From the NCBI RefSeq assembly GCF_004154955.1, contig NZ_CP011524.1, forward strand, positions 806,001 through 870,000: a stretch of 64,000 nucleotides of DNA. Reading direction: 5' to 3'. The notes under the pieces are model-generated. The model was not told the origin of the DNA. It worked only from the letters and a program-made list of their open reading frames with translations, and made no database searches. Shown here one piece after another: positions 52,129-62,914 of the stretch (position 1 is the stretch's first letter; every line of letters begins with the position of its first letter). Source of the DNA: Intestinimonas butyriciproducens. GTDB lineage: Bacteria; Bacillota; Clostridia; Oscillospirales; Oscillospiraceae. The position numbers and the translations under genes are program-made.

Positions 52129-52157
52129 TTGACAACAACTATCCACATTGCTATGAT
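52129..52157 (+). promoter_or_regulatory. Promoter of the Rrf2-type regulator gene
   Basis: TTGACA, 17-nt spacer, TATGAT with upstream TGC extended -10; start predicted about 40 bp before the GTG start codon. Confidence 0.8.
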
Positions 52158-52203: not shown

Positions 52204-52617
52204 GTGCTGATTACCAGAGAGACGGATTATGCCCTTCGGGTCCTTCGGGCGCTGTCGGAGGGGGAGCAGCTCACAGCGGGAGACATCTCTGAACAGCAGA
52301 TGGTGCCCAAGCCGTTTGCCTATAAGATCATCAAGAAGCTGAGCAAGGCGGGATTCGTGCGCATTACCAGAGGTGCTGACGGCGGTTGCCGTCTGGCTGT
52401 GGGACTGGACAAGGTGACGCTTTATGATCTGATGGCGGCAATGGAAGAGGACAGTGCAGTCATCGCCTGCATGGAGCCGGGCTATTCCTGCCCTTGGCGG
52501 GAAGCCCACGGAGGCTGCATGGTTCACTGCCGGCTGGGGCTTGTACAGCAAAGGCTGCATGAGGAGCTGCGGGGACATACGCTCCAGGAGCTGATTTTTG
52601 GCACGGCTGCGGAGTGA
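52204..52617 (+). CDS. Rrf2-family transcriptional regulator
   Basis: Regulator of 137 residues from GTG at 52204 behind GGGGAGGG. The N-terminal winged helix is LITRETDYALRVLRAL. The C-terminal half has four cysteines in CMEPGYSCPWREAHGGCMVHC; three such cysteines usually hold an Fe-S cluster in Rrf2 proteins (IscR, NsrR, RsrR). It probably senses O2, NO or redox state. The fusion dehydrogenase and flavodiiron genes follow directly, with a symmetric site between. Confidence 0.92.
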   Translation: MLITRETDYALRVLRALSEGEQLTAGDISEQQMVPKPFAYKIIKKLSKAGFVRITRGADGGCRLAVGLDKVTLYDLMAAMEEDSAVIACMEPGYSCPWREAHGGCMVHCRLGLVQQRLHEELRGHTLQELIFGTAAE

Positions 52618-52622
52618 GTTTT

Positions 52623-52658
52623 TTATCCAAATTGTGGATAAAATTTATCCAATATAAT
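52623..52658 (+). promoter_or_regulatory. Probable Rrf2 operator and promoter of the fusion gene
   Basis: TTATCCA-AATTG-TGGATAA (52623-52641) is a perfect inverted repeat; a third half-site TTTATCC follows at 52644-52650. A -10 TATAAT is at 52653-52658, so the operator overlaps the -35 region. The predicted leader is very short, with the AAAGGAGG RBS at 52667. Confidence 0.6.
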
Positions 52659-52681
52659 CAATGACCAAAGGAGGCAGAGAT

Positions 52682-54589
52682 ATGAATTTCCAGACAACAA
52701 AGCAGCACGAGGAATTTCGGGCCAAGGTGAGAGCCTTTGCCGAATCCGAGGTGAAGCCGGTGGCGTTTCTTCTGGACAAAGAGAACCGCTTCCCGGACGA
52801 GATCGTAAGCAAGATGGGAGCACTGGGCCTGATGGGTGTGCCCTATCCCACGGAATACGGCGGGGCGGGATTGGACGTGCTCAGCTATGCCATTGCCGTG
52901 GAGGAGCTCTCGCGGGTAGACGGCGGCACCGGCGTGATCCTCTCTGCCCATGTATCCCTGGGCTCATGGCCCATCTTCGCCTACGGTACGGATGAGCAGA
53001 AGAGGAAATACCTGGCGCCTCTGGCCAGGGGGGAGAAGATCGGCGCGTTCGGACTCACGGAGCCCAACGCAGGCTCCGATGCCGGCGGTACGGAGACCAC
53101 CGCCGTCCTCAAGGGCGACCACTATATCCTGAACGGGGGAAAGATCTTTATTACCAACGCCCCCAAGGCGGATACCTATGTGGTGTTTGCCGTCACCACG
53201 CCGGACATCGGCACCCGAGGCATCAGCGCTTTTATCGTGGAAAAGGATTTCCCCGGCTTTGATTTCGGCGACCACTATGACAAAATGGGCATCCGCTCCT
53301 CTTCCACCGCGGAACTGATTTTCAATAACGTGCCGGTACCCAGAGAGAACCTGCTAGGCAAGGAGGGAGAGGGCTTCAAGATTGCCATGGCGACTCTGGA
53401 TGGAGGGCGTATCGGCATTGCCTCCCAGGCTCTGGGGATCGCACAGGGGGCCTATGACTCGGCTGTGGAATATGCCAAGGAACGGGTCCAGTTTGGAAAG
53501 CCCATCGGGTTCCAGCAGTCCATCTCCTTCAAGCTGGCGGATATGGCCACCAAGCTGCGCTGTGCCCGGATGCTGATTTATTCGGCGGCCGAGCTCAAAG
53601 AGCACCACGAGCCTTACGGCATGGAGTCCGCCATGGCCAAGATGTACGCCTCCGACATCGCGCTGGAAGTCACCAACGACGCGCTCCAGATCTATGGCGG
53701 CGCCGGCTTCATGAAGGGTATGGATGTGGAGCGTGCCTACCGGGACGCGAAGATCACCACGATTTATGAAGGCACCAACGAGATCCAGCGGGTGGTCATC
53801 GCCTCTCACATTCTGGGCAAGCCGCCCAGGGATGCGGGGTCCTCCAGCCAGCCGAAGAAGCCGGCGCCCGTCACCGGCGTGCGGAAAAAGCGCATTCTCA
53901 GGGACGGCTCCGCCGAAGAGCAGGTGCAGGAGCTGGTGGAGTGTCTCAAAAAGGATGGCCACGACTTCACTGTAGGGATCCCCATGGACACCCCCATTGC
54001 CCGGGCCGAGCGGGTGGTCTCCGCCGGACAGGGCATCGGAGACCAGAAGAATATGAAGCTCATTGAGCGGCTGGCCAAGGCCGCCGGAGCTGCGGTGGGC
54101 GCCTCCCGCCCCGTGGCGGAGACACTTAAATATGTGCCTCTGGACCGGTATGTGGGCATGTCTGGTCAGAAGTTCACCGGCAATCTGTACATCGCCTGCG
54201 GAATCTCCGGCGCGGTTCAGCACCTCAAGGGCATCAAAGACGCCTCCACCATCGTGGCCATCAACAAGAACGCCGGCGCTCCCATTTTCAAAAACTGCGA
54301 CTACGGCATCGTGGGCGATGTAAATGAGATCCTGCCCCTGCTGGCCAAAGCCTTGGGTACAGGCGACAAGCTGCCCGCCCCGCCCATGGTCAAAATGAAG
54401 CGTCCCACGCCTCCCAAGCCGGAGCCCATCGGAAAACGGTATGTCTGCGGCGGCTGCGGCTACGAGTATGTCCCTGAGCTGGGAGACGAGGACGCAGAGA
54501 TCGCCCCGGGCACCCTTTTTGAGAAGCTGCCGGAGGATTGGGTCTGTCCCGAATGCGCCGAGGGTAAGCACATGTTCATTGAAGTATGA
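52682..54589 (+). CDS. Acyl-CoA dehydrogenase-EtfA FAD domain-rubredoxin fusion
   Basis: A 635-residue fusion starting at ATG 52682 behind AAAGGAGG. Residues 1 to about 385 are a complete acyl-CoA dehydrogenase with FAD contacts ([23 protein letters not shown]) and catalytic Glu363 in IYEGTNEIQ. About 395-565 is the FAD-binding C-terminal half of Etf alpha ([51 protein letters not shown]), with no EtfB or EtfA N-terminal half. The last about 50 residues are rubredoxin: Cys589/Cys592 and Cys622/Cys625. Electrons can pass from acyl-CoA via two FADs to the rubredoxin iron and on to the flavodiiron protein encoded next. Confidence 0.95.
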
Positions 54590-54608
54590 CTGAGAGGGGG
54601 ATTTTAAG

Positions 54609-55814
54609 ATGTATTGCGTGAGAAATGTCACCGAGGACCTCTACTGGGTGGGGGCCAACGATCACCGGCTGGCCCTCTTTGAGAATATCCATCCCATCCC
54701 CAGAGGGGTGTCCTACAACGCCTACCTGCTGCTGGACGAGAAGTCCGTTCTCTTCGACACGGTGGACTGGTCGGCCTGCCGCCAGCTCCTGGAGAATGTG
54801 GAGCACCTCCTGGGCGGGAGGGGGCTGGATTACCTGGTCATCAATCATATGGAGCCCGACCACGGGGCCTCCATCGAGGAGATCCTGCTTCGCTATCCGA
54901 AGGTGAAGATCATCTCCACGGAGAAGGCATTTATGCTCATGCGCCAGTTCGGGTTTCAAGTGGACGGTCACGAGTTGATCGAGGTAAAAGAGGGGGACAC
55001 ACAGTCCTTTGGAAAGCACGTGGTCACCTTTGTAGCCGCCCCCATGGTCCACTGGCCGGAGGCCATGGTCACCTTCGATACCACCAACGGGGTCCTGTTC
55101 TCCGCCGACGCGTTCGGCGCCTTCGGAGCGCTGGACGGCAAGCTCTTTGCCGATGAGGTAGACTTTGACCGCGACTGGATCGATGACGCCCGAAGGTACT
55201 ATACCAATATTGTGGGCAAGTATGGCCCTCACGTCATGCACTTGCTGAAAAAAGCGGGGACCATTGATATCAAGATGCTCTGCCCCCTCCATGGTCCCGT
55301 TTGGCGGGAGAATATCCCCTATCTTCTGGATAAGTATGTCCACTGGGCCACCTATGAGCCGGAAGAGAAAGGTGTGGTGGTGGCGTACGCCTCCATGTAC
55401 GGAAACACTGAGGCGGCGGCCCAGGCGTTGGCGTCCAAACTGTGCGAAAAGGGCATGACCAATGTATGGCTGTATGACGTGAGCAATACCCACGTTTCCT
55501 ATCTCATTTCCGAGACCTTCCGCCTGTCCCATGTGGTGCTGGCCTCAGTGACTTACAATTTGGGCATCTATCCTGTCATGCACGGTTTTCTCCAGGATAT
55601 GAAGGCCCTCAACCTGCAAAAGCGCACTGTGGCCATCGTGGAGAATGGCTCCTGGGCCTGTAAATCAGGCGATCTCATGCAGAAGTTCCTGGACGATGAG
55701 ATGAAGGGCATGACCGTACTGAATGAGAGGCTCAGTCTGGCCTCCTCCCTGGGGGAGGGCAAAGAGGCGGAGCTGGACGCCTTGGCCAACGCCATTCTGG
55801 CATCTATGCAGTGA
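54609..55814 (+). CDS. Flavodiiron protein (A-type flavoprotein)
   Basis: Flavodiiron protein of 401 residues that reduces O2 to water and/or NO to N2O. The N-terminal metallo-beta-lactamase-fold domain has diiron ligands His80, Glu82, Asp84 and His85 in HMEPDH, then His in MVHWPE, Asp in SADAFG and His in LHGPVW. The C-terminal flavodoxin domain (from about residue 255) has ASMYGNTE for FMN. Rubredoxin is the usual donor, and here it is fused to the dehydrogenase encoded 19 bp upstream. Confidence 0.95.
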   Translation: MYCVRNVTEDLYWVGANDHRLALFENIHPIPRGVSYNAYLLLDEKSVLFDTVDWSACRQLLENVEHLLGGRGLDYLVINHMEPDHGASIEEILLRYPKVKIISTEKAFMLMRQFGFQVDGHELIEVKEGDTQSFGKHVVTFVAAPMVHWPEAMVTFDTTNGVLFSADAFGAFGALDGKLFADEVDFDRDWIDDARRYYTNIVGKYGPHVMHLLKKAGTIDIKMLCPLHGPVWRENIPYLLDKYVHWATYEPEEKGVVVAYASMYGNTEAAAQALASKLCEKGMTNVWLYDVSNTHVSYLISETFRLSHVVLASVTYNLGIYPVMHGFLQDMKALNLQKRTVAIVENGSWACKSGDLMQKFLDDEMKGMTVLNERLSLASSLGEGKEAELDALANAILASMQ

Positions 55815-55887: not shown

Positions 55888-55931
55888 AAAGAGACGTCCT
55901 CCGTGCTGTTCAGCACGGAGGACGTCTCTTT
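55888..55931. terminator. Bidirectional terminator
   Basis: 20-nt perfect arms (55888-55907 and 55912-55931) with loop GTTC, ending CTCTTTTG on the plus strand. It separates the flavodiiron gene from the convergent SDR gene. Confidence 0.85.
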
Positions 55932-55965: not shown

Positions 55966-56748
55966 TCAGACCATGTGTTCCCAGCCATACTGCGGATTCT
56001 GCGTACAGAATTTTCCGCCCGAGATGTAGACCTCGGTGCCGTTCATATATTCTGCGATGTCGCTGCTCAAAAAGACCAGCACTTTGGCCAGATCCTCAGG
56101 GCGGCCAAACCGACGGCAGGGGATGGCGGAGAGCAGGGCGTCCCGATTTCTGGCAATGTGATCCCTGGTGATCTCGGTGGCGATCAAGCCGGGGACATAG
56201 GCCAGCACCCGGATCTGGTCGGGGGCCAGCTCGGCGGCAAAGGAGCGCGTGAGAGAACTCACCGCGGATTTACACGCGCTGTAGGGCGCACGTCCGGCAT
56301 TCGGGATGACGGCGGAATAAGATGAGGCGTTCAGAATGACGCCGCCTCCGGTCTTGCGCATGTGCGCCGCCGCGATCTTGCATCCGGCAAAGACCGAGAT
56401 GAGCAGGGCCTCTGTACTGCTGCGGAATTCGTCGTAGCTGTAATCCATCAGGGACTTTGTCTGGTTGGAGGCGGCATTGTTGTACCAGACGTCAATTTTG
56501 CCGTAGGCCTCCGCCACTTCGTCGGCGAAGCGCTCCACGGCGGGGTAGTCGGTCACATCCAGGCTGCGGGCAAAAACGGAGTAGCCCGCGGCCTGAAACT
56601 CCCGGACCGCATCCTCCAGGCGGGCCTGTCCGCGGGAGCAGATGGCCACATGGCAGCCCTCCTTCAGATACTCCCACGCAACGGCCTTCCCAATGCCGCT
56701 GGAACCGCCGGTGATGACGACGGTCCGGCCGGTTAAACCAAGTTCCAT
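55966..56748 (-). CDS. SDR-family oxidoreductase
   Basis: Short-chain dehydrogenase of 260 residues; start ATG at 56748 behind GGGAGGT. The cofactor motif is TGGSSGIGKA, the catalytic set is Ser in ASSYS with Tyr and Lys in YSACK, and the substrate loop follows PGLIATEI. R and S features near the N-terminus favour NADP, though this is uncertain. The product is unknown. It is co-transcribed with the upstream metallo-beta-lactamase-fold gene. Confidence 0.88.
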   Translation of the reverse strand: MELGLTGRTVVITGGSSGIGKAVAWEYLKEGCHVAICSRGQARLEDAVREFQAAGYSVFARSLDVTDYPAVERFADEVAEAYGKIDVWYNNAASNQTKSLMDYSYDEFRSSTEALLISVFAGCKIAAAHMRKTGGGVILNASSYSAVIPNAGRAPYSACKSAVSSLTRSFAAELAPDQIRVLAYVPGLIATEITRDHIARNRDALLSAIPCRRFGRPEDLAKVLVFLSSDIAEYMNGTEVYISGGKFCTQNPQYGWEHMV

Positions 56749-56792
56749 ACATGATGACCTCCCATGTCGATTCGTTTTTGGAACGCAAGATC

Positions 56793-57626
56793 TTATGCTT
56801 TGAAGGCGCTTTGCTGTTCCAACGCATCCAACTGTGCCAGAAAGCTGTCGGCCATTTCGGCCCAAAGGGCGGGGTCACACTGCGGATAGTCCCGGTCTCC
56901 ATACTGTTTCAGCCGTTCCAACATGGATGTGTTTTCCGGATGAGAGCCCAGGGCGATGTCCACGGGCAGAGCGCGGAGCCGCTCCATGGAACGGCGGTAT
57001 TCCCCGCGCAGAGATACGGGCAGGCCGGTGTGGCGCAGAAAGCCGTCACTGAGCGTGTTGAGTCCCAAACCGCCGTGCATGGCACAGCGGTAGAGCCTCC
57101 CTGTCGCCTCGTCTGTGTCCTCAAAATAGAAGGAAGTGCAGCCGGGCGTGTGCCCCGGGGTAGAGAACGTGTGGATCGAAAAGCGCCCTTGTACAATGGG
57201 CGTGTCCTCCCGATACACCTCATCTACGGCAAAGGGCGTAAAGGGGTAGCGGTCCGGGTAGATAAGGCTTTGGTGGGACTCCTCCAGGAAAAACAAATCT
57301 CGCTCTCCGAGGTAGATCCGGGCCTGGGGGGCGAGTCCCTGCAGAAAGCGGGCGCCGCCACAGTGATCATAATGGGCGTGGCTCAGGAGAATAGCACGGA
57401 TATCCTTGGGGTCGAAACCCAGCGTGCAGATGGAGTAGACCAACAGGTGGAGGGTGGGCTGCATCGCGGTATCCAGCAGCAGCAGCCCGTCACCGGTATC
57501 GAAGAGATAGGCGCCTACCCAGCGATTCCCGCTGACATAATAGACATGGGGCGCGACGTGGAAGGGGGGCTGCCACCAGTCCCAGGGGCTGTCGCAGCAG
57601 GCGCGCATATATTCGGTGGGCCGCAT
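56793..57626 (-). CDS. Metallo-beta-lactamase-fold hydrolase
   Basis: MBL-fold protein of 277 residues; start ATG at 57626 behind GGGAGGA. The metal-binding HAHYDHCGG motif and later GHTPGCTSFY His are present, with a final His near GSHPENTS. No signal peptide is seen. Substrate is unknown; lactonases, thioesterases and glyoxalases share this fold. The gene precedes the SDR gene by 44 bp on the same strand. Confidence 0.87.
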   Translation of the reverse strand: MRPTEYMRACCDSPWDWWQPPFHVAPHVYYVSGNRWVGAYLFDTGDGLLLLDTAMQPTLHLLVYSICTLGFDPKDIRAILLSHAHYDHCGGARFLQGLAPQARIYLGERDLFFLEESHQSLIYPDRYPFTPFAVDEVYREDTPIVQGRFSIHTFSTPGHTPGCTSFYFEDTDEATGRLYRCAMHGGLGLNTLSDGFLRHTGLPVSLRGEYRRSMERLRALPVDIALGSHPENTSMLERLKQYGDRDYPQCDPALWAEMADSFLAQLDALEQQSAFKA

Positions 57627-57689
57627 AAGAACATTCCTCCCGGCGGGAAAGGTCCGGCACATCAGGGGATGGACCTCCGATTTTTGACT

Positions 57690-57718
57690 AGTATAAATCG
57701 GGTGTGGCCAGAAGGCAA
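57690..57718 (-). promoter_or_regulatory. Promoter of the MBL-SDR operon
   Basis: Minus strand TTGCCT, 17-nt spacer, TATACT, about 65 bp upstream of the start codon. Confidence 0.6.
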
Positions 57719-57778
57719 GCAAAAAATAAAAAATTTTTCTCAGTGTGTTTTTTGAACCGGCGCATATTTCTTGAGCGG

Positions 57779-57790
57779 GCAAACGTTTGC
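57779..57790. promoter_or_regulatory. LacI/PurR-like palindrome
   Basis: GCAAACGTTTGC, a perfect 12-bp palindrome with central CG in the divergent gap between the MBL and MaoC genes. The remaining 57.63-57.94 kb is AT-rich with no gene. Confidence 0.4.
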
Positions 57791-57938
57791 GGGGAAACAT
57801 TAGATCAAAAAATAACAAATGATAATTTGATTAGTAATGTACAAAAAGAGATGGAAGAAATACAATCCGAATAAACAAAGTGCCGAAAAATAAGGCTTGT
57901 TTCAAAAAAGAGAGAAAATTTTAGAGGGGGATCAAGCG

Positions 57939-58412
57939 ATGAAAAAAGACTTGGAGCAGCAGATATATTTTGAGGATATGGAGATCGGGGACAAGGTGGT
58001 AAGCGTGGGGCGGACGATCACCGAGGCGGATATCGTGAGCTTCGCGGGGCTGACTGGGGACTACAATACGCTGCACACGGACGCGGAGTTTGCCAAGGGA
58101 TCCATTGCCGGGCAGCGACTGGCCCACGGTATGCTGCCCCTTACATACTCCTCGGGGCTTTTCACACGGACGAGCTACAACCAGGCCATGATGGCGCAAA
58201 TGGCGGCGCTGACGGAGATCAACTGGAAGTTCAAAAAGCCGGTTCTCATTGGGGATACGATCCACGTGGAGCAGGAGGTCATCGAAAAGGCGGACCCCCG
58301 GCCGGAGAGCGATATGGGGAAGGTCACCTTCCTGCGCACCATCTTCAACCAGCGGGGCGAGATCGTCCAGCAGGGTGAGTTCAAGCAGTTGATCCGTAAA
58401 TATCCGAAATAA
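57939..58412 (+). CDS. MaoC-family (R)-enoyl-CoA hydratase
   Basis: Hot-dog-fold dehydratase of 157 residues; ATG at 57939 behind GAGGGGG. The catalytic Asp/His lie in GDYNTLHTD and the AGQRLAHGML segment is typical of MaoC. It hydrates enoyl-CoA to (R)-3-hydroxyacyl-CoA or the reverse. As first gene of the dehydratase operon it may act on the enoyl-CoA product, or serve a bypass. Confidence 0.88.
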   Translation: MKKDLEQQIYFEDMEIGDKVVSVGRTITEADIVSFAGLTGDYNTLHTDAEFAKGSIAGQRLAHGMLPLTYSSGLFTRTSYNQAMMAQMAALTEINWKFKKPVLIGDTIHVEQEVIEKADPRPESDMGKVTFLRTIFNQRGEIVQQGEFKQLIRKYPK

Positions 58413-58459
58413 AGACAAATAAGAGGATTCAAAAACAAAATTGGAAGGGAAGGGTATTC

Positions 58460-59641
58460 ATGCAGGCTCTGGAAGGATTGAAAGTAGTTGAAGTAGGCAA
58501 TATTCTGGCAGGCCCGTGGTGTGGGACGATGATGGCGGATTTCGGCGCCGACGTCATCAAGGTGGAACCCCCCAAGGGCGGCGACCTCATGCGGAATATG
58601 GGGCGCATCAAAGACATGTGGTACGCGGTGGAGGGACGGAATAAACGCTGCGTCACGCTGAACCTGAAGTCGGAGAAGGGCAAGGAGATGCTCACCGACC
58701 TGATCAAAGATGCGGATATCCTGATCGAGAACTTCCGCCCGGGCGTATTCAAGCGGCTGGGCTTTACATGGGAGTCCCTGCATGCCCTCAACCCCCGGCT
58801 GGTGTATGTAACGTCATCCGGATACGGACAGACCGGACCCAACAGCCACAAGCCCGGGTTTGACCGCATTGGCCTGGCGCTGGGCGGGTTCCTGGAGATC
58901 ACCGGTTTCCCCGGCGAGCCCCCTGTGAAGCCCGGCATCTCGGTGGCCGACTTCTACACGGCCATGTTTGCGTGTATGGGCGCCATGTTCGCCATCTATA
59001 ACCGGGATGTGGTCGGGACCGGAGAAGGGCAGATGATCGACTGCTGCCTGACGGAATCGATGCTCCGCCTCCAGGAGAGCATTATCGCGGAGTACAGCTA
59101 TGACGGCACGATCCGGACCCGTATCGGCAACGGTACGCTGGTGACGGTCCCCTCCGGACACTTCCTCACCAAGGACGGAAAGTACTTGGTGCTCTCCGTC
59201 TCGGGCGACAAACTGTTCAAGCAGTGGTGCGAATCCATCGGCAGGCCGGAGTTGGCGGAGGTCGAAGACTATAAGACCGGCGCGGGGAGGACGGCCAACC
59301 GGGAGGAGATCAATGCTATCTGCGCCGAATGGGCCAGGGAGCACACCATTGAGGAGTGCCTGGAGGTCTTGGGCGACGACATTCCCAACTGTCCTGTCTA
59401 CAATGTGGCGGACATCATGCAGGACGAGCATTTCAAGGCACGCAACGCCATCGTGGATGTGGATACGGAACAGTTCGGCACACTGAAAATGCAGAACTGC
59501 GTGCCGAAGATGTATGGTACGCCCGGCGAGATCAAGTGGGCGGGCGCCCCTCTGGGCAAATTCAACGAGGAGGTTTACGGCGAAAAGCTGGGACTTACGC
59601 CGGAAGACTTGGCAAAACTCAAAGAGGAAGGCGTCATCTGA
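58460..59641 (+). CDS. Family III CoA-transferase (CaiB/HadA/FldA type)
   Basis: CoA-transferase of 393 residues. The catalytic aspartate is Asp164 in ISVADFYT, and the N-terminal LEGLKVVEVGNILAGPWCG is typical. In 2-hydroxyacid fermentations this class moves CoA from the enoate or acyl-CoA product onto the 2-hydroxyacid. It lies between MaoC and the activator gene, the standard arrangement. The exact acid cannot be deduced. Confidence 0.92.
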   Translation: MQALEGLKVVEVGNILAGPWCGTMMADFGADVIKVEPPKGGDLMRNMGRIKDMWYAVEGRNKRCVTLNLKSEKGKEMLTDLIKDADILIENFRPGVFKRLGFTWESLHALNPRLVYVTSSGYGQTGPNSHKPGFDRIGLALGGFLEITGFPGEPPVKPGISVADFYTAMFACMGAMFAIYNRDVVGTGEGQMIDCCLTESMLRLQESIIAEYSYDGTIRTRIGNGTLVTVPSGHFLTKDGKYLVLSVSGDKLFKQWCESIGRPELAEVEDYKTGAGRTANREEINAICAEWAREHTIEECLEVLGDDIPNCPVYNVADIMQDEHFKARNAIVDVDTEQFGTLKMQNCVPKMYGTPGEIKWAGAPLGKFNEEVYGEKLGLTPEDLAKLKEEGVI

Positions 59642-59687
59642 ACCTATGACCCTCCGGATGAGAAAAGTTCGAAAGGCGGAGAGAAGA

Positions 59688-60470
59688 ATGTTGACGATGG
59701 GAGTAGATATCGGGTCAACGGCGTGCAAGTGCATCATCATGGAGGATGGGCGAGAGATCAAAGCACGCGCGGTGGTACCGTTGGGGACGGGGACGCAGGG
59801 GTCCAGGACGGTGTTCGAGGCGGCGCTGAGAAAAGCGGGGAAAACGCGGGAGGAGATCGAACGGATCCTAGTGACGGGATATGGACGGTTCACGTTCGAG
59901 GCGGCGGACAGCCAGAAGAGCGAGATCACGTGCCATGCCACGGGGGTCCATTACCTGCTGCCCACAGCCCGAACCGTGGTCGACATTGGCGGGCAGGATG
60001 TAAAGGCACTCCGCCTGAGTGAGGATGGTCTTCTGGATAACTTCGTGATGAACGACAAATGCGCGGCAGGGACCGGCCGCTTTCTGGACGTGATGGCCGG
60101 TGTGCTGGATGTGAAGACGGAGGAGCTGGGGGAGCTGTCATCGCAAGCCCGGTCGGAAGTGAGCATCAGCAACACATGCACGGTATTTGCCGAGTCGGAG
60201 GTCATCTCACAGCTTTCGAACAATGTACCGCTGCCGGATCTGGTGGCGGGGATTCACGCGTCGGTGGCAAAGCGAGTGGCGGCGCTGGTATTCCGGAACG
60301 GGCTGGTGAAGGATGTGGCGATGAGCGGCGGGGTGGCGCTGAACAGCGGAGTTGTTCGGGCGCTGAGCCGGGAGCTCAAGAGCGAGATTCTGGTCCACGA
60401 GGACTGCCAGCTGGCCGGGGCCATCGGGGCCGCGATTCTGGCATACCGGGAGGCAAAACGAGTCTCCTGA
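59688..60470 (+). CDS. 2-hydroxyacyl-CoA dehydratase activator (HadI/HgdC type)
   Basis: ASKHA-fold ATPase of 260 residues; start ATG at 59688. GVDIGSTACKCI binds phosphate. Cysteines in NDKCAAGTGRF and NTCTVFAESEV are the ligands for the single 4Fe-4S cluster bridging the homodimer. It injects one high-energy electron into the dehydratase using ATP. Oxygen-sensitive by nature, as expected in strict anaerobes. Confidence 0.93.
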   Translation: MLTMGVDIGSTACKCIIMEDGREIKARAVVPLGTGTQGSRTVFEAALRKAGKTREEIERILVTGYGRFTFEAADSQKSEITCHATGVHYLLPTARTVVDIGGQDVKALRLSEDGLLDNFVMNDKCAAGTGRFLDVMAGVLDVKTEELGELSSQARSEVSISNTCTVFAESEVISQLSNNVPLPDLVAGIHASVAKRVAALVFRNGLVKDVAMSGGVALNSGVVRALSRELKSEILVHEDCQLAGAIGAAILAYREAKRVS

Positions 60471-60515
60471 GCAAGTGAGAAGCAAGCAAGAAGAAAAAGA
60501 AGAGGAGTGATCGAA

Positions 60516-61790
60516 ATGGCAGAACACACCGCGCCGGCGGCGAAGCCGAAGAAGCCGCTGCCCAAGTCCCGCCAGATGATGAACGAGCAGACGGCAAAGT
60601 GCTATGCCGACGCCTGGGCGGCGAAGAAGCGTGGAGAGCCGGTGGGCTGGTCCACCGCCATCTTCCCCCAGGAGATCTGCGAGACATTTGGCGTACCGGT
60701 CCTGTACCCGGAGAACAACTGCGCCTCCGTATCCGCCAAGCACATGGGGGACCAGTTCATCTCCCACTCGGAGGGAGAGCTGGGCTATCCCATCAATATC
60801 TGCTCCTATGCCCGTCTGAACCTGGGGATCGCGGATACCTTCGACGATCCCAACTATGACTATGAGCCCAAGCTGCCCCGGCCGGACTTCCTGCTGCTGG
60901 CCAACAACAGCTGCACCCAGCTGATGAAGTGGTATGAGAACCTGGCTCGGAAGCTGAACATCCCCATCTTCTTTGTGGACTGCCTCTTCAACTACTATGA
61001 GGAGGACCCGGCCCCCCACAAGATCAAGTACGTACGCAGCCAGATCGAAAACTATATCAAGGATATGGAGAAGTTCCTGGGGCGGAAGTTCGACTGGGAT
61101 AAGTTCCTGGAGGTGCAGAAGCGCTCCCAGATCAACTGCCACCTCTTTGACGAGATCGTGGCGCTGAACCAGCGCAAGCCCGCGCCCATGAGCGGCTTCG
61201 ACCTCTTCAACTACATGGCGGCCCTGGTACTGTGCCGGGGCAAGGAGTCCACCACGGCCATCTTCGAGCAGCTCAAGGCGGAGGTTCTGGAGCACATCGC
61301 CAACGATACCAGCACCTTCCCCGCGGAGGAGAAGTACCGCGTCCACTGGGAGGGCATCGCCTGCTGGCCGAACCTGGGCTACAACCTGAAGACACTGAAA
61401 AACTACAATGTCAACGCGGTGATGAACGGGTATGTCACTGCGTGGGATGTGCTGTACGAGCCCGGGGATTTGGACGGCATGGCCCGGGCATACCAGATCT
61501 CCTCCACCAACAGCCTGTCCACCCCCTCCATCATGGGCAAGCGTGCCCAGAGCATCAAGGACTTCGGCTGTGACGGGATGCTCTGCCACGTGAACCGGAG
61601 CTGCAAGCTGATGACCTTCCACATCTTCACAGGCCGGGATATGATCGAGGAGCAGGCGGGCGTGCCGGTGGCGAACTTCGACGGAGACCAGTCGGATACG
61701 CGGGTGTTCTCCGAGGCGCAGTTCGAGACCCGCCTCCAGGGCCTGGTGGAGATCATGGATGAGAAAAAGAAGAAGGGGGCGGCGGAATAA
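60516..61790 (+). CDS. 2-hydroxyacyl-CoA dehydratase subunit B
   Basis: Subunit of 424 residues; start ATG at 60516 behind AGAGGAG. Cysteines in NNCASVS and NNSCTQLMKWY are placed as cluster ligands. With the next gene it forms the radical dehydratase that turns 2-hydroxyacyl-CoA into enoyl-CoA. HadB/FldB/LcdB members are alike by eye, so the substrate may be a hydroxy acid from leucine, phenylalanine, glutamate or lactate. Confidence 0.92.
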   Translation: MAEHTAPAAKPKKPLPKSRQMMNEQTAKCYADAWAAKKRGEPVGWSTAIFPQEICETFGVPVLYPENNCASVSAKHMGDQFISHSEGELGYPINICSYARLNLGIADTFDDPNYDYEPKLPRPDFLLLANNSCTQLMKWYENLARKLNIPIFFVDCLFNYYEEDPAPHKIKYVRSQIENYIKDMEKFLGRKFDWDKFLEVQKRSQINCHLFDEIVALNQRKPAPMSGFDLFNYMAALVLCRGKESTTAIFEQLKAEVLEHIANDTSTFPAEEKYRVHWEGIACWPNLGYNLKTLKNYNVNAVMNGYVTAWDVLYEPGDLDGMARAYQISSTNSLSTPSIMGKRAQSIKDFGCDGMLCHVNRSCKLMTFHIFTGRDMIEEQAGVPVANFDGDQSDTRVFSEAQFETRLQGLVEIMDEKKKKGAAE

Positions 61791-62914
61791 TGTCGGAGAT
61801 CAAGGCGATACTGGAAGAGCTGGCGGAGGTATCCGGGAATCCCCGGAAGCAGATGGAGAAATATCTGTCGGCGGGGAAGAAGGTCGTGGGCTGCTTCCCT
61901 GTGTACACGCCGGAGGAGCTGGTGCACGCCGGGGGTATGATCCCCATGGGCCTGTGGGGCGGACAGATCACGCCGTCTGTGGCGGGAAAGTATAACCCGA
62001 TCTTCACATGCTCCATCATGCGCTCCTGTATGGAATACGGGATGACGGGGGTGTACGAGGGCCTGACGTGCGCGGTGATGCCGATGCTGTGCGACACGTT
62101 CCGCGGCATGAGCGCGGCGTGGCGGTCCGGTGTGAAGGACATCCCGCTGGTGTCGTTCATCCACCCGCAGAACCGGACGGACTCCGATGCATTTTCGTTC
62201 CTGGTGGAGGAGTACCGGGCGGCGGCGAAGAAGCTGGAGGAAGTGACGGGATGCACCATTACGGAGGAGTCTCTGGCGCAGAGCATCGAGGTGTATAACG
62301 AGCACTCGGCGACGATGATGGCGTTTGCGAAGGCGGCCAACGACCACCTGGACGTGATCACGCCGGTGGCGCGGCACGCGGTGTTCAAGAGCGCGCTGTT
62401 CATGGAGAAGGGGGAGCACACGGAGAAGGTGAAGGAGCTCCTCTCGGCTCTGGAGGGGCTGCCGAAGTATGAGCACAAGGGGAAGAAAGTGATCCTGACG
62501 GGGATCACGGCGGAGCCCGACGAGTTTTTGGAGCTGTTCACGGAGTGCGGGATTGCGGTGGTCGGGGACGATCTGGCGCAGGAGTCCCGGCTGTACCGGA
62601 CGGCGATCCCGAAGCGTGGAACGGCGCTGGAGGATCTGGCGGGGCAGTGGTTTGAGCGGAAGGGATGCTCGATGGTGCATGAGGTGGAAAGCACACGGGG
62701 CTCCATGCTGGTGGAGATGGCGCAGGCCGCGGGGGCCCAGGGGATCGTGGTGTGCCTGATGCGCTTCTGCGATGTGGAGGAGTACGACTATCCCATGATC
62801 GCACAGTCCGCCAAAGAGGCCGGCCTGCGCTGCCTCTGCCTGGAGATCGACCAGAGCACCCAGAACAACGAGCAGTCCCACACCAAGATCCAGAGCTTCG
62901 CTGAGATGGCATAG
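61790..62914 (+). CDS. 2-hydroxyacyl-CoA dehydratase subunit C
   Basis: Partner subunit of 374 residues. Its ATG overlaps the upstream TAA by 1 bp. Cysteines in KVVGCFPVYTPEE and FTCSIMRSCMEYG are the likely cluster ligands. The operon lacks the acyl-CoA dehydrogenase and EtfBA usually found downstream of hadBC, so the enoyl-CoA must be reduced by enzymes elsewhere or used by the MaoC hydratase. Confidence 0.92.
   Translation: MSEIKAILEELAEVSGNPRKQMEKYLSAGKKVVGCFPVYTPEELVHAGGMIPMGLWGGQITPSVAGKYNPIFTCSIMRSCMEYGMTGVYEGLTCAVMPMLCDTFRGMSAAWRSGVKDIPLVSFIHPQNRTDSDAFSFLVEEYRAAAKKLEEVTGCTITEESLAQSIEVYNEHSATMMAFAKAANDHLDVITPVARHAVFKSALFMEKGEHTEKVKELLSALEGLPKYEHKGKKVILTGITAEPDEFLELFTECGIAVVGDDLAQESRLYRTAIPKRGTALEDLAGQWFERKGCSMVHEVESTRGSMLVEMAQAAGAQGIVVCLMRFCDVEEYDYPMIAQSAKEAGLRCLCLEIDQSTQNNEQSHTKIQSFAEMA

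Follow-up and report, generated by a model that had tools for sequence, protein, structure and literature searches.

The closest described relative of the locus analysed here is a protein pair of Fusobacterium nucleatum, FN1423-FN1424, which was reportedly characterised by Bystrom and Wolthers (Biochemistry 2024) and named butyryl-CoA oxygen oxidoreductase, henceforth referred to as BOOR, consisting of the fusion protein BCR and a flavodiiron protein (FDP). The locus itself lies in a stretch of 64,000 nucleotides of Intestinimonas butyriciproducens (contig NZ_CP011524.1, positions 806,001 to 870,000), referred to throughout as the window, and is a member of BOOR whose electron wire, FDP partner and chemistry are already known. 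In the oral bacterium F. nucleatum, fusion and FDP assemble into an alpha4-beta4 complex that oxidises butyryl-CoA, reduces O2 to H2O and is reported to lack nitric oxide (NO) reductase activity (PMC12288474, PMC12630350). The electron route described for this relative runs from acyl-CoA through the dehydrogenase FAD, the Etf FAD and rubredoxin to the FDP and O2, and many obligate anaerobes of the Firmicutes encode BOOR (PMC12288474). For a related Rrf2 cluster, a preprint finds the BCR architecture in 123 of 149 neighbourhoods; it also gives three Cys residues and Asp8 as the iron-sulfur (Fe-S) ligands of NsrR (PMC13404960).

Like BOOR, the window encodes one polypeptide with an acyl-CoA dehydrogenase, the C-terminal domain of EtfA and a four-Cys rubredoxin, next to a class A FDP. 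The window differs from F. nucleatum in that its unit also includes an upstream Rrf2 gene, the organism belongs to another phylum, and the activity is predicted from sequence. With the congener F. gastrosuis standing in for F. nucleatum, the window BCR and FDP are 76% and 71% identical to the corresponding pair, and F. gastrosuis falls in the same 72-row group of a quick tree as the window (SH-aLRT, a likelihood-ratio branch support, 96). By homology to the F. nucleatum relative, from which activity, complex and substrate are carried over, the window pair is very probably a butyryl-CoA:O2 oxidoreductase. A reading of the electron wire as novel was rejected, as architecture, FDP partner and chemistry are already published, the pair as BOOR and the Rrf2 link in the preprint (PMC13404960).

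Two further kinds of system invite comparison. The bifurcating Bcd-EtfAB complex of Clostridioides difficile (5OL2) has a homologous dehydrogenase (61% identity in a fold match) and EtfA domain II, but its EtfB and EtfA domain I are missing from the window fusion, which would therefore have no bifurcating FAD site. In the flavorubredoxin NorV and in the C. difficile FDP, NADH is the electron source and rubredoxin is fused to the FDP, not to the donor. The window shares with both an FDP fed via rubredoxin (NorV, 7R1J and others; the C. difficile FDP, an NADH:O2 oxidoreductase, PMC6033852).

Architecture of the fusion protein and its flavodiiron partner

Three co-directional genes occupy window positions 52204-55814, in the order Rrf2 regulator, BCR fusion and FDP:
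52204-52617, plus strand: Rrf2-family regulator (P0003), 137 residues, GTG start; Pfam PF02082 (Rrf2), E 2.1e-25
52682-54589, plus strand: BCR fusion (P0001), 635 residues, from Pfam domains; the identity to the F. gastrosuis protein extends over 633 residues
52697-53812, plus strand: acyl-CoA dehydrogenase part of BCR, residues 6-377; Pfam, PDB and fold matches
53996-54238, plus strand: EtfA domain II of BCR, the FAD-binding half, residues 439-519; Pfam ETF_alpha
54437-54577, plus strand: rubredoxin domain of BCR; Pfam PF00301, 65.8 bits, with matches to PDB rubredoxins
54609-55814, plus strand: FDP of class A type (P0002), 401 residues; Pfam ODP and Flavodoxin_1

The start of BCR was placed at the ATG at 52682 because AGGAGG sits directly before it, the ATG at 52661 being a less likely alternative. 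Pfam matches delimit a complete dehydrogenase (Acyl-CoA_dh_N at 6-118, _M at 122-217 and _1 at 229-377) followed by ETF_alpha at 439-519 and Rubredoxin at 586-632. The catalytic base Glu363 lies within IYEGTNE, and the rubredoxin ligands Cys589, Cys592, Cys622 and Cys625 are all present. Together with the alignments, these positions bear out the claim that one open reading frame joins a dehydrogenase containing Glu363, the FAD-binding half of EtfA and a four-Cys rubredoxin. Glu363 is kept in 128 of 128 readable fusion rows, and the seven FDP iron ligands in 124 of 124 readable FDPs (four groups summed in each case, with a few genomes counted twice).

The Etf stretch aligns solely to EtfA residues 189-304 of 1EFP_A and 206-325 of 5OL2_A; because only the C-terminal ~120 residues of EtfA are covered, domain I is considered absent, and no EtfB frame was seen in the open reading frame listing of the three-gene unit. 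The best PDB match of the dehydrogenase is 5OL2_C, the C. difficile Bcd of the Bcd-Etf complex (E 4.5e-148), which is also the nearest solved structure by fold. The predicted structure of BCR has a mean pLDDT (per-residue confidence) of 78.6 and a pTM (confidence in overall topology) of 0.59, with part of the first linker and residues 577-583 below 50, and its domain placement is not trustworthy.

The FDP consists of a metallo-beta-lactamase and a flavodoxin domain without any extra domain by Pfam. The intact HMEPDH that had been claimed for it was found at residues 80-85 and is joined by His148, Asp167 and His228, giving all seven iron ligands. A 475-residue frame of the same genome encodes a second FDP, which is flavorubredoxin-like and carries a rubredoxin of its own; the genome also has two small rubredoxins, an etfB-etfA-bcd set (locus L035) and one RnfD-family gene.

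The best-scoring solved FDPs (6ETB, 4D02 and 1YCF) are named NO reductases, with the rubredoxin:oxygen oxidoreductase 1E5D close behind, and the Rrf2 protein carries an NsrR-like Asp8 and three Cys. Both would suit a system that is chiefly an acyl-CoA-fed NO reductase under an NO-sensing Rrf2. Such a role is nevertheless improbable, since the F. nucleatum complex is reported to lack NO reductase activity (PMC12288474), the second FDP of the genome is better placed for NO, and the regulator scores 45.8 bits against an NCBIfam NsrR equivalog cut-off of 182, for which reason it is filed as Rrf2 family and not as NsrR. The original prediction had electrons reaching either O2 or NO without NADH or EtfB; the O2 route holds for the F. 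nucleatum relative and the NO route does not, both according to the same review (PMC12288474).

Distribution and linkage of the fusion to FDP

A class-wide survey covered 391 genomes with at most three candidates scored per genome, so that fusion counts are lower bounds. The full-length fusion was present in at least 31 of the 391, the organism's own included, which argues against a fusion by chance. An FDP adjoins the fusion in all 29 other genomes with loci (30 with the organism's own), and likewise in the 31st (L034). A further 66 named loci (L039-L104) were taken from the best 80 matches, leaving out 13 of the 80 that were partial matches of the EtfA kind (L106-L118); a few named loci repeat unnamed ones. 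An FDP lies near the fusion in 65 of these 66, starting within 400 bp in 62, and is linked in all eight same-genus and near-kin loci (L159-L166). The original prediction had made the FDP the partner of the fusion, and these neighbourhoods agree with it.

The fusion appears as one long frame in 58 of the 66 named loci; a shorter frame holds the EtfA-rubredoxin end in L042, L044, L051 and L104, and the contig cuts the fusion in L061, L062, L092 and L093. In L069 the contig ends 428 bases past the fusion, and in L061 a gap of 847 bp precedes the FDP. An extra open frame was seen between BCR and FDP in L057 (5736-6572) and L067 (5806-6276), and a second FDP gene on the opposite side of the fusion in L013, L022 and L023. 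Holders among the best 80 matches include Fusobacterium, Brachyspira, a Synergistaceae metagenome-assembled genome and an Erysipelotrichaceae bacterium. The spread is patchy: the fusion was found in 8 of 11 genomes of the organism's own genus, in 1 of 14 from other genera of the family and in 1 of 15 from elsewhere in the order, some of these genomes being incomplete.

Paralogues of the fusion without rubredoxin also occur. They were found in 15 of 31 Anaerococcus genomes, and one of the two in genome G351 is interrupted. Ten loci of such paralogues were read; a second FDP stands divergently beside the paralogue in eight (L141-L144, L146 with one open frame between, L148, L149 and L158), and none was seen beside it in L145 and L147. 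A Tissierellia fusion without rubredoxin (L105, 86-3100) is followed by an FDP 112 bp downstream. The rubredoxin-less fusions of L032 (6117-7808) and L145 (3713-5419) are flanked by genes resembling, by eye, hbd and a CoA transferase; no FDP was seen in their vicinity, and they are perhaps EtfB-free butyryl-CoA enzymes. The rubredoxin-less copy of L033 (6126-7355, genome G351), which has a divergent FDP beside it, is both truncated and interrupted and seems to be a decaying gene.

Paralogues such as those of L032 and L145, away from any FDP seen, together with the other rubredoxins of the window organism's genome, leave room for a fusion whose main role is reductive or which serves another acceptor, such as rubrerythrin, the FDP neighbour being incidental. 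The FDP is linked to the fusion in every one of 29 genomes and in 65 of 66 named loci, across several phyla, which speaks against an incidental neighbour and makes such a role highly improbable.

Proposed function

In the butyryl-CoA:O2 oxidoreductase favoured here, the substrate of BCR would be a short-chain acyl-CoA, most probably butyryl-CoA, and its product the enoyl-CoA. The dehydrogenase FAD would hand the electrons to the FAD bound by the fused EtfA domain II, from which they would move on to the rubredoxin iron. They would then reach first the FMN and next the diiron centre of the FDP, and at that centre O2 would be reduced to water. Crotonyl-CoA would be reduced again via EtfB-EtfA-Bcd and the RnfD-family protein, as the presence of these genes in the genome makes possible. 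Taken with the second FDP and the small rubredoxins, they fit the published butyryl-CoA/crotonyl-CoA cycle. We infer the same activity and substrate, as well as the regulation described below, for the window organism. The window would thus mark one more gut-type anaerobe able to burn O2 with the weak reductant butyryl-CoA and not with NADH, as reported for many butyrate producers (PMC12288474).

Three findings weigh against parts of this proposal. The top named model for BCR is the acryloyl-CoA reductase AcrC, at 495 bits and under its cut-off of 640, which bears on the chain length of the substrate. Anaerococcus retains the BCR-FDP pair without any rubredoxin Cys, and the rubredoxin step may accordingly not be essential. 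Finally, just 27 of 97 loci showed an Rrf2 gene immediately before the fusion, so that control by Rrf2 is not general; adjacent regulators were detected by similarity to the window Rrf2, and divergent ones may have been missed.

A rubredoxin domain without cysteines in Anaerococcus

The full-length fusion was found in 29 of 31 Anaerococcus genomes, and in all 29 (L029, L030, L119-L137 and L150-L157) the rubredoxin domain is devoid of Cys, with D, S, S and S at the ligand places. The named Anaerococcus loci L096-L098 show the same residues, L097 and L098 repeating two of the 29 genomes. The FDP match starts 31-38 bases beyond the last aligned fusion codon in the 29 genomes (in L030 the FDP frame opens 6 bases after the fusion stop), and the seven FDP ligands are intact in 27 of 27. 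Despite the missing Cys, the domain retains a match to rubredoxins (E 1.2e-15), and the confidence of its structure prediction is good, with block means of 86-91. One of its PDB matches is 1QCV, entered as rubredoxin variant PFRD-XC4. We take this entry to be a designed rubredoxin that folds without metal.

Over the 29 Anaerococcus genes, the ratio of nonsynonymous to synonymous polymorphism (pN/pS) is 0.18 for the Cys-less rubredoxin, 0.10 for the dehydrogenase and 0.15 for EtfA domain II, with 0.45 and 0.20 for the first and second linkers. The Cys-less domain is under purifying selection and is not decaying, and its constraint is no stricter than that of the linker preceding it, the second.

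For a tree of the fusion, 136 rows were kept that were not partial and were free of stops and unknown letters: 93 with at least four Cys, 31 without Cys and 12 without rubredoxin. Thinning of near-copies and of the Cys-less set reduced them to 99, and one outgroup was added for a quick tree, in which L031, L145, L105 and the outgroup sit on long branches and are unsurely placed. The Cys-less rows (7 of the 31 after thinning) form one group with support 97, nested in a group of 16 rows with two four-Cys rows and seven rubredoxin-less paralogues. Four or more Cys stand in that stretch in each of the other 93 rubredoxin-bearing rows, among them the window.

A rubredoxin domain that is mainly a docking module, with the Etf FAD able to reduce the FDP flavin without it, would account for the D, S, S, S residues in all 29 full-fusion Anaerococcus genomes with the FDP directly downstream and the domain still constrained, and for the rubredoxin-less Tissierellia fusion of L105 close before its FDP. 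Set against it are the four or more Cys of all 93 other rubredoxin-bearing rows and the near-equal pN/pS of the neighbouring linker. Moreover, the two Anaerococcus genomes checked, G351 and G117, each encode one separate intact rubredoxin, and this free protein could carry the electrons. For the fusions at large we consider the docking role rather unlikely. Because the Anaerococcus domain has no Cys, the place of rubredoxin as an obligatory relay is nonetheless in doubt: its iron may not be required, a point that concerns the relatives, the window rubredoxin being intact. Tentatively, the rubredoxin iron of acyl-CoA:O2 oxidoreductases might be dispensable, with electrons in Anaerococcus passing directly from the Etf FAD to the FDP flavin while the rubredoxin fold docks, and docking might then be half of the domain's job in the window.

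The Cys-less rubredoxin domain in BOOR is new as far as the literature searches reach: no report of it in Anaerococcus BOOR was found by searches that left subscription papers mostly outside, and the 2024 article may mention it. These enzymes are nature's own test of the need for rubredoxin iron in the wire from acyl-CoA to FDP.

The Rrf2 regulator and a predicted operator

The window Rrf2 had been described as a four-Cys regulator. It has five Cys (62, 89, 96, 105 and 109), and an alignment of 29 BCR-adjacent Rrf2 rows, the window included and L037 repeating L004, corrects the conserved set. Cys89 and Cys96 are kept in 29 of 29 rows and Cys105 in 28 (one not covered); Asp8 is found in 27 (one Glu, one not covered), and Cys109 in only 5. 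The conserved set of BCR-linked Rrf2 proteins is three Cys and Asp8, as described for NsrR, and not four Cys. The Rrf2 protein C0FN14, which stands beside BOOR in gut Clostridia, resembles that of the window in its three Cys and Asp8 and in its position next to BCR and FDP, according to the preprint (PMC13404960).

The candidate control sites of the unit are as follows:
52129-52157, plus strand: promoter-like site of the Rrf2 gene, TTGACA, 17-nt spacer, TATGAT; 11 of 12 positions match
52129-52145, plus strand: predicted operator TTGAC-N8-TCCA, spanning the -35 box into the spacer of the promoter-like site
52622-52651, no strand assigned: weaker candidate second operator upstream of BCR, an inverted repeat with an overlapping TGGA-N8-ATCCA

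The fusion start could be read in 97 of 104 candidate loci, and 27 of these 97 were Rrf2-linked; two of the 27 were dropped for too little upstream sequence or a cut-off regulator, leaving 25 usable regions. Counting either strand, 16 of the 25 have an exact TTGAC-N8-TCCA upstream of Rrf2, where 200 first-order resamplings gave a mean of 0.03; with up to one mismatch allowed the number is 19, where the resamplings gave 0.56. The forward-strand spacing between TTGAC and TCCA is 8 in 14 of the 25 regions and 3 in one, and no region has a spacing of 4-7 or 9-15. When the pattern is lengthened, the window site is its single match in the genome. These counts are to be read with the knowledge that the pattern was read by eye in the same, related loci before it was scored, and that it overlaps the -35 box, so that only the TCCA at fixed distance counts as independent information. 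A promoter scan of 4 kb gave 2 sites against 1.6 in shuffles, and the promoter match alone is weak.

In the gap between Rrf2 and BCR, a copy of the motif with at most one mismatch is present in 7 of the 27 loci (resampled mean 0.28), inverted in 6 of the 7; the copies of L039 and L046 are exact, and those of L003, L049, L082, L159 and L164 carry one mismatch. The window copy in this gap departs from the inverted motif at two positions and so falls outside this count. Upstream of BCR in the 70 loci without an adjacent Rrf2, there was 1 exact match and 6 with at most one mismatch (resampled means 0.06 and 1.64). The window also contains a script-found inverted repeat, TTTATCCA-AATTG-TGGATAAA, at 52622-52642, which overlaps TGGA-N8-ATCCA (52635-52651). 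As a general operator this repeat was rejected, being present in no other locus compared, and TTGAC-N8-TCCA took its place.

TTGAC-N8-TCCA over the regulator's promoter is thus likely to be the operator, and its position from the -35 box into the spacer is one where a repressor could sit. The window Rrf2 is a probable Fe-S sensor and repressor of the three-gene unit, which it probably holds off from this site until its Fe-S cluster is oxidised or nitrosylated. The operator is new as far as the literature searches reach; in the main text of the preprint (PMC13404960) the words operator, motif, promoter and binding site are absent, and the candidate comes from the present analysis. As predicted, it would offer a direct way to learn under which conditions the pair is expressed.

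Downstream end of the unit and neighbouring genes

Reading of the sequence beyond the FDP gene gave one further feature:
55890-55929, plus strand: possible terminator of the three-gene unit, a perfect 19-bp hairpin with a 2-base loop, then TTTG

This hairpin is absent from the output of the terminator scan, which requires a loop of 3-8 and a longer T run. A downstream cluster at 57939-62914 was ruled out as part of the BCR-FDP unit, because two minus-strand genes (55966-57818) and the hairpin intervene. No acyl-CoA dehydrogenase was found among the seven scanned neighbours in the region of the cluster. The cluster encodes a MaoC-like hydratase, a CoA-transferase of family III, a BadF-type ATPase and two HGD-D subunits, and is a 2-hydroxyacyl-CoA dehydratase pathway.

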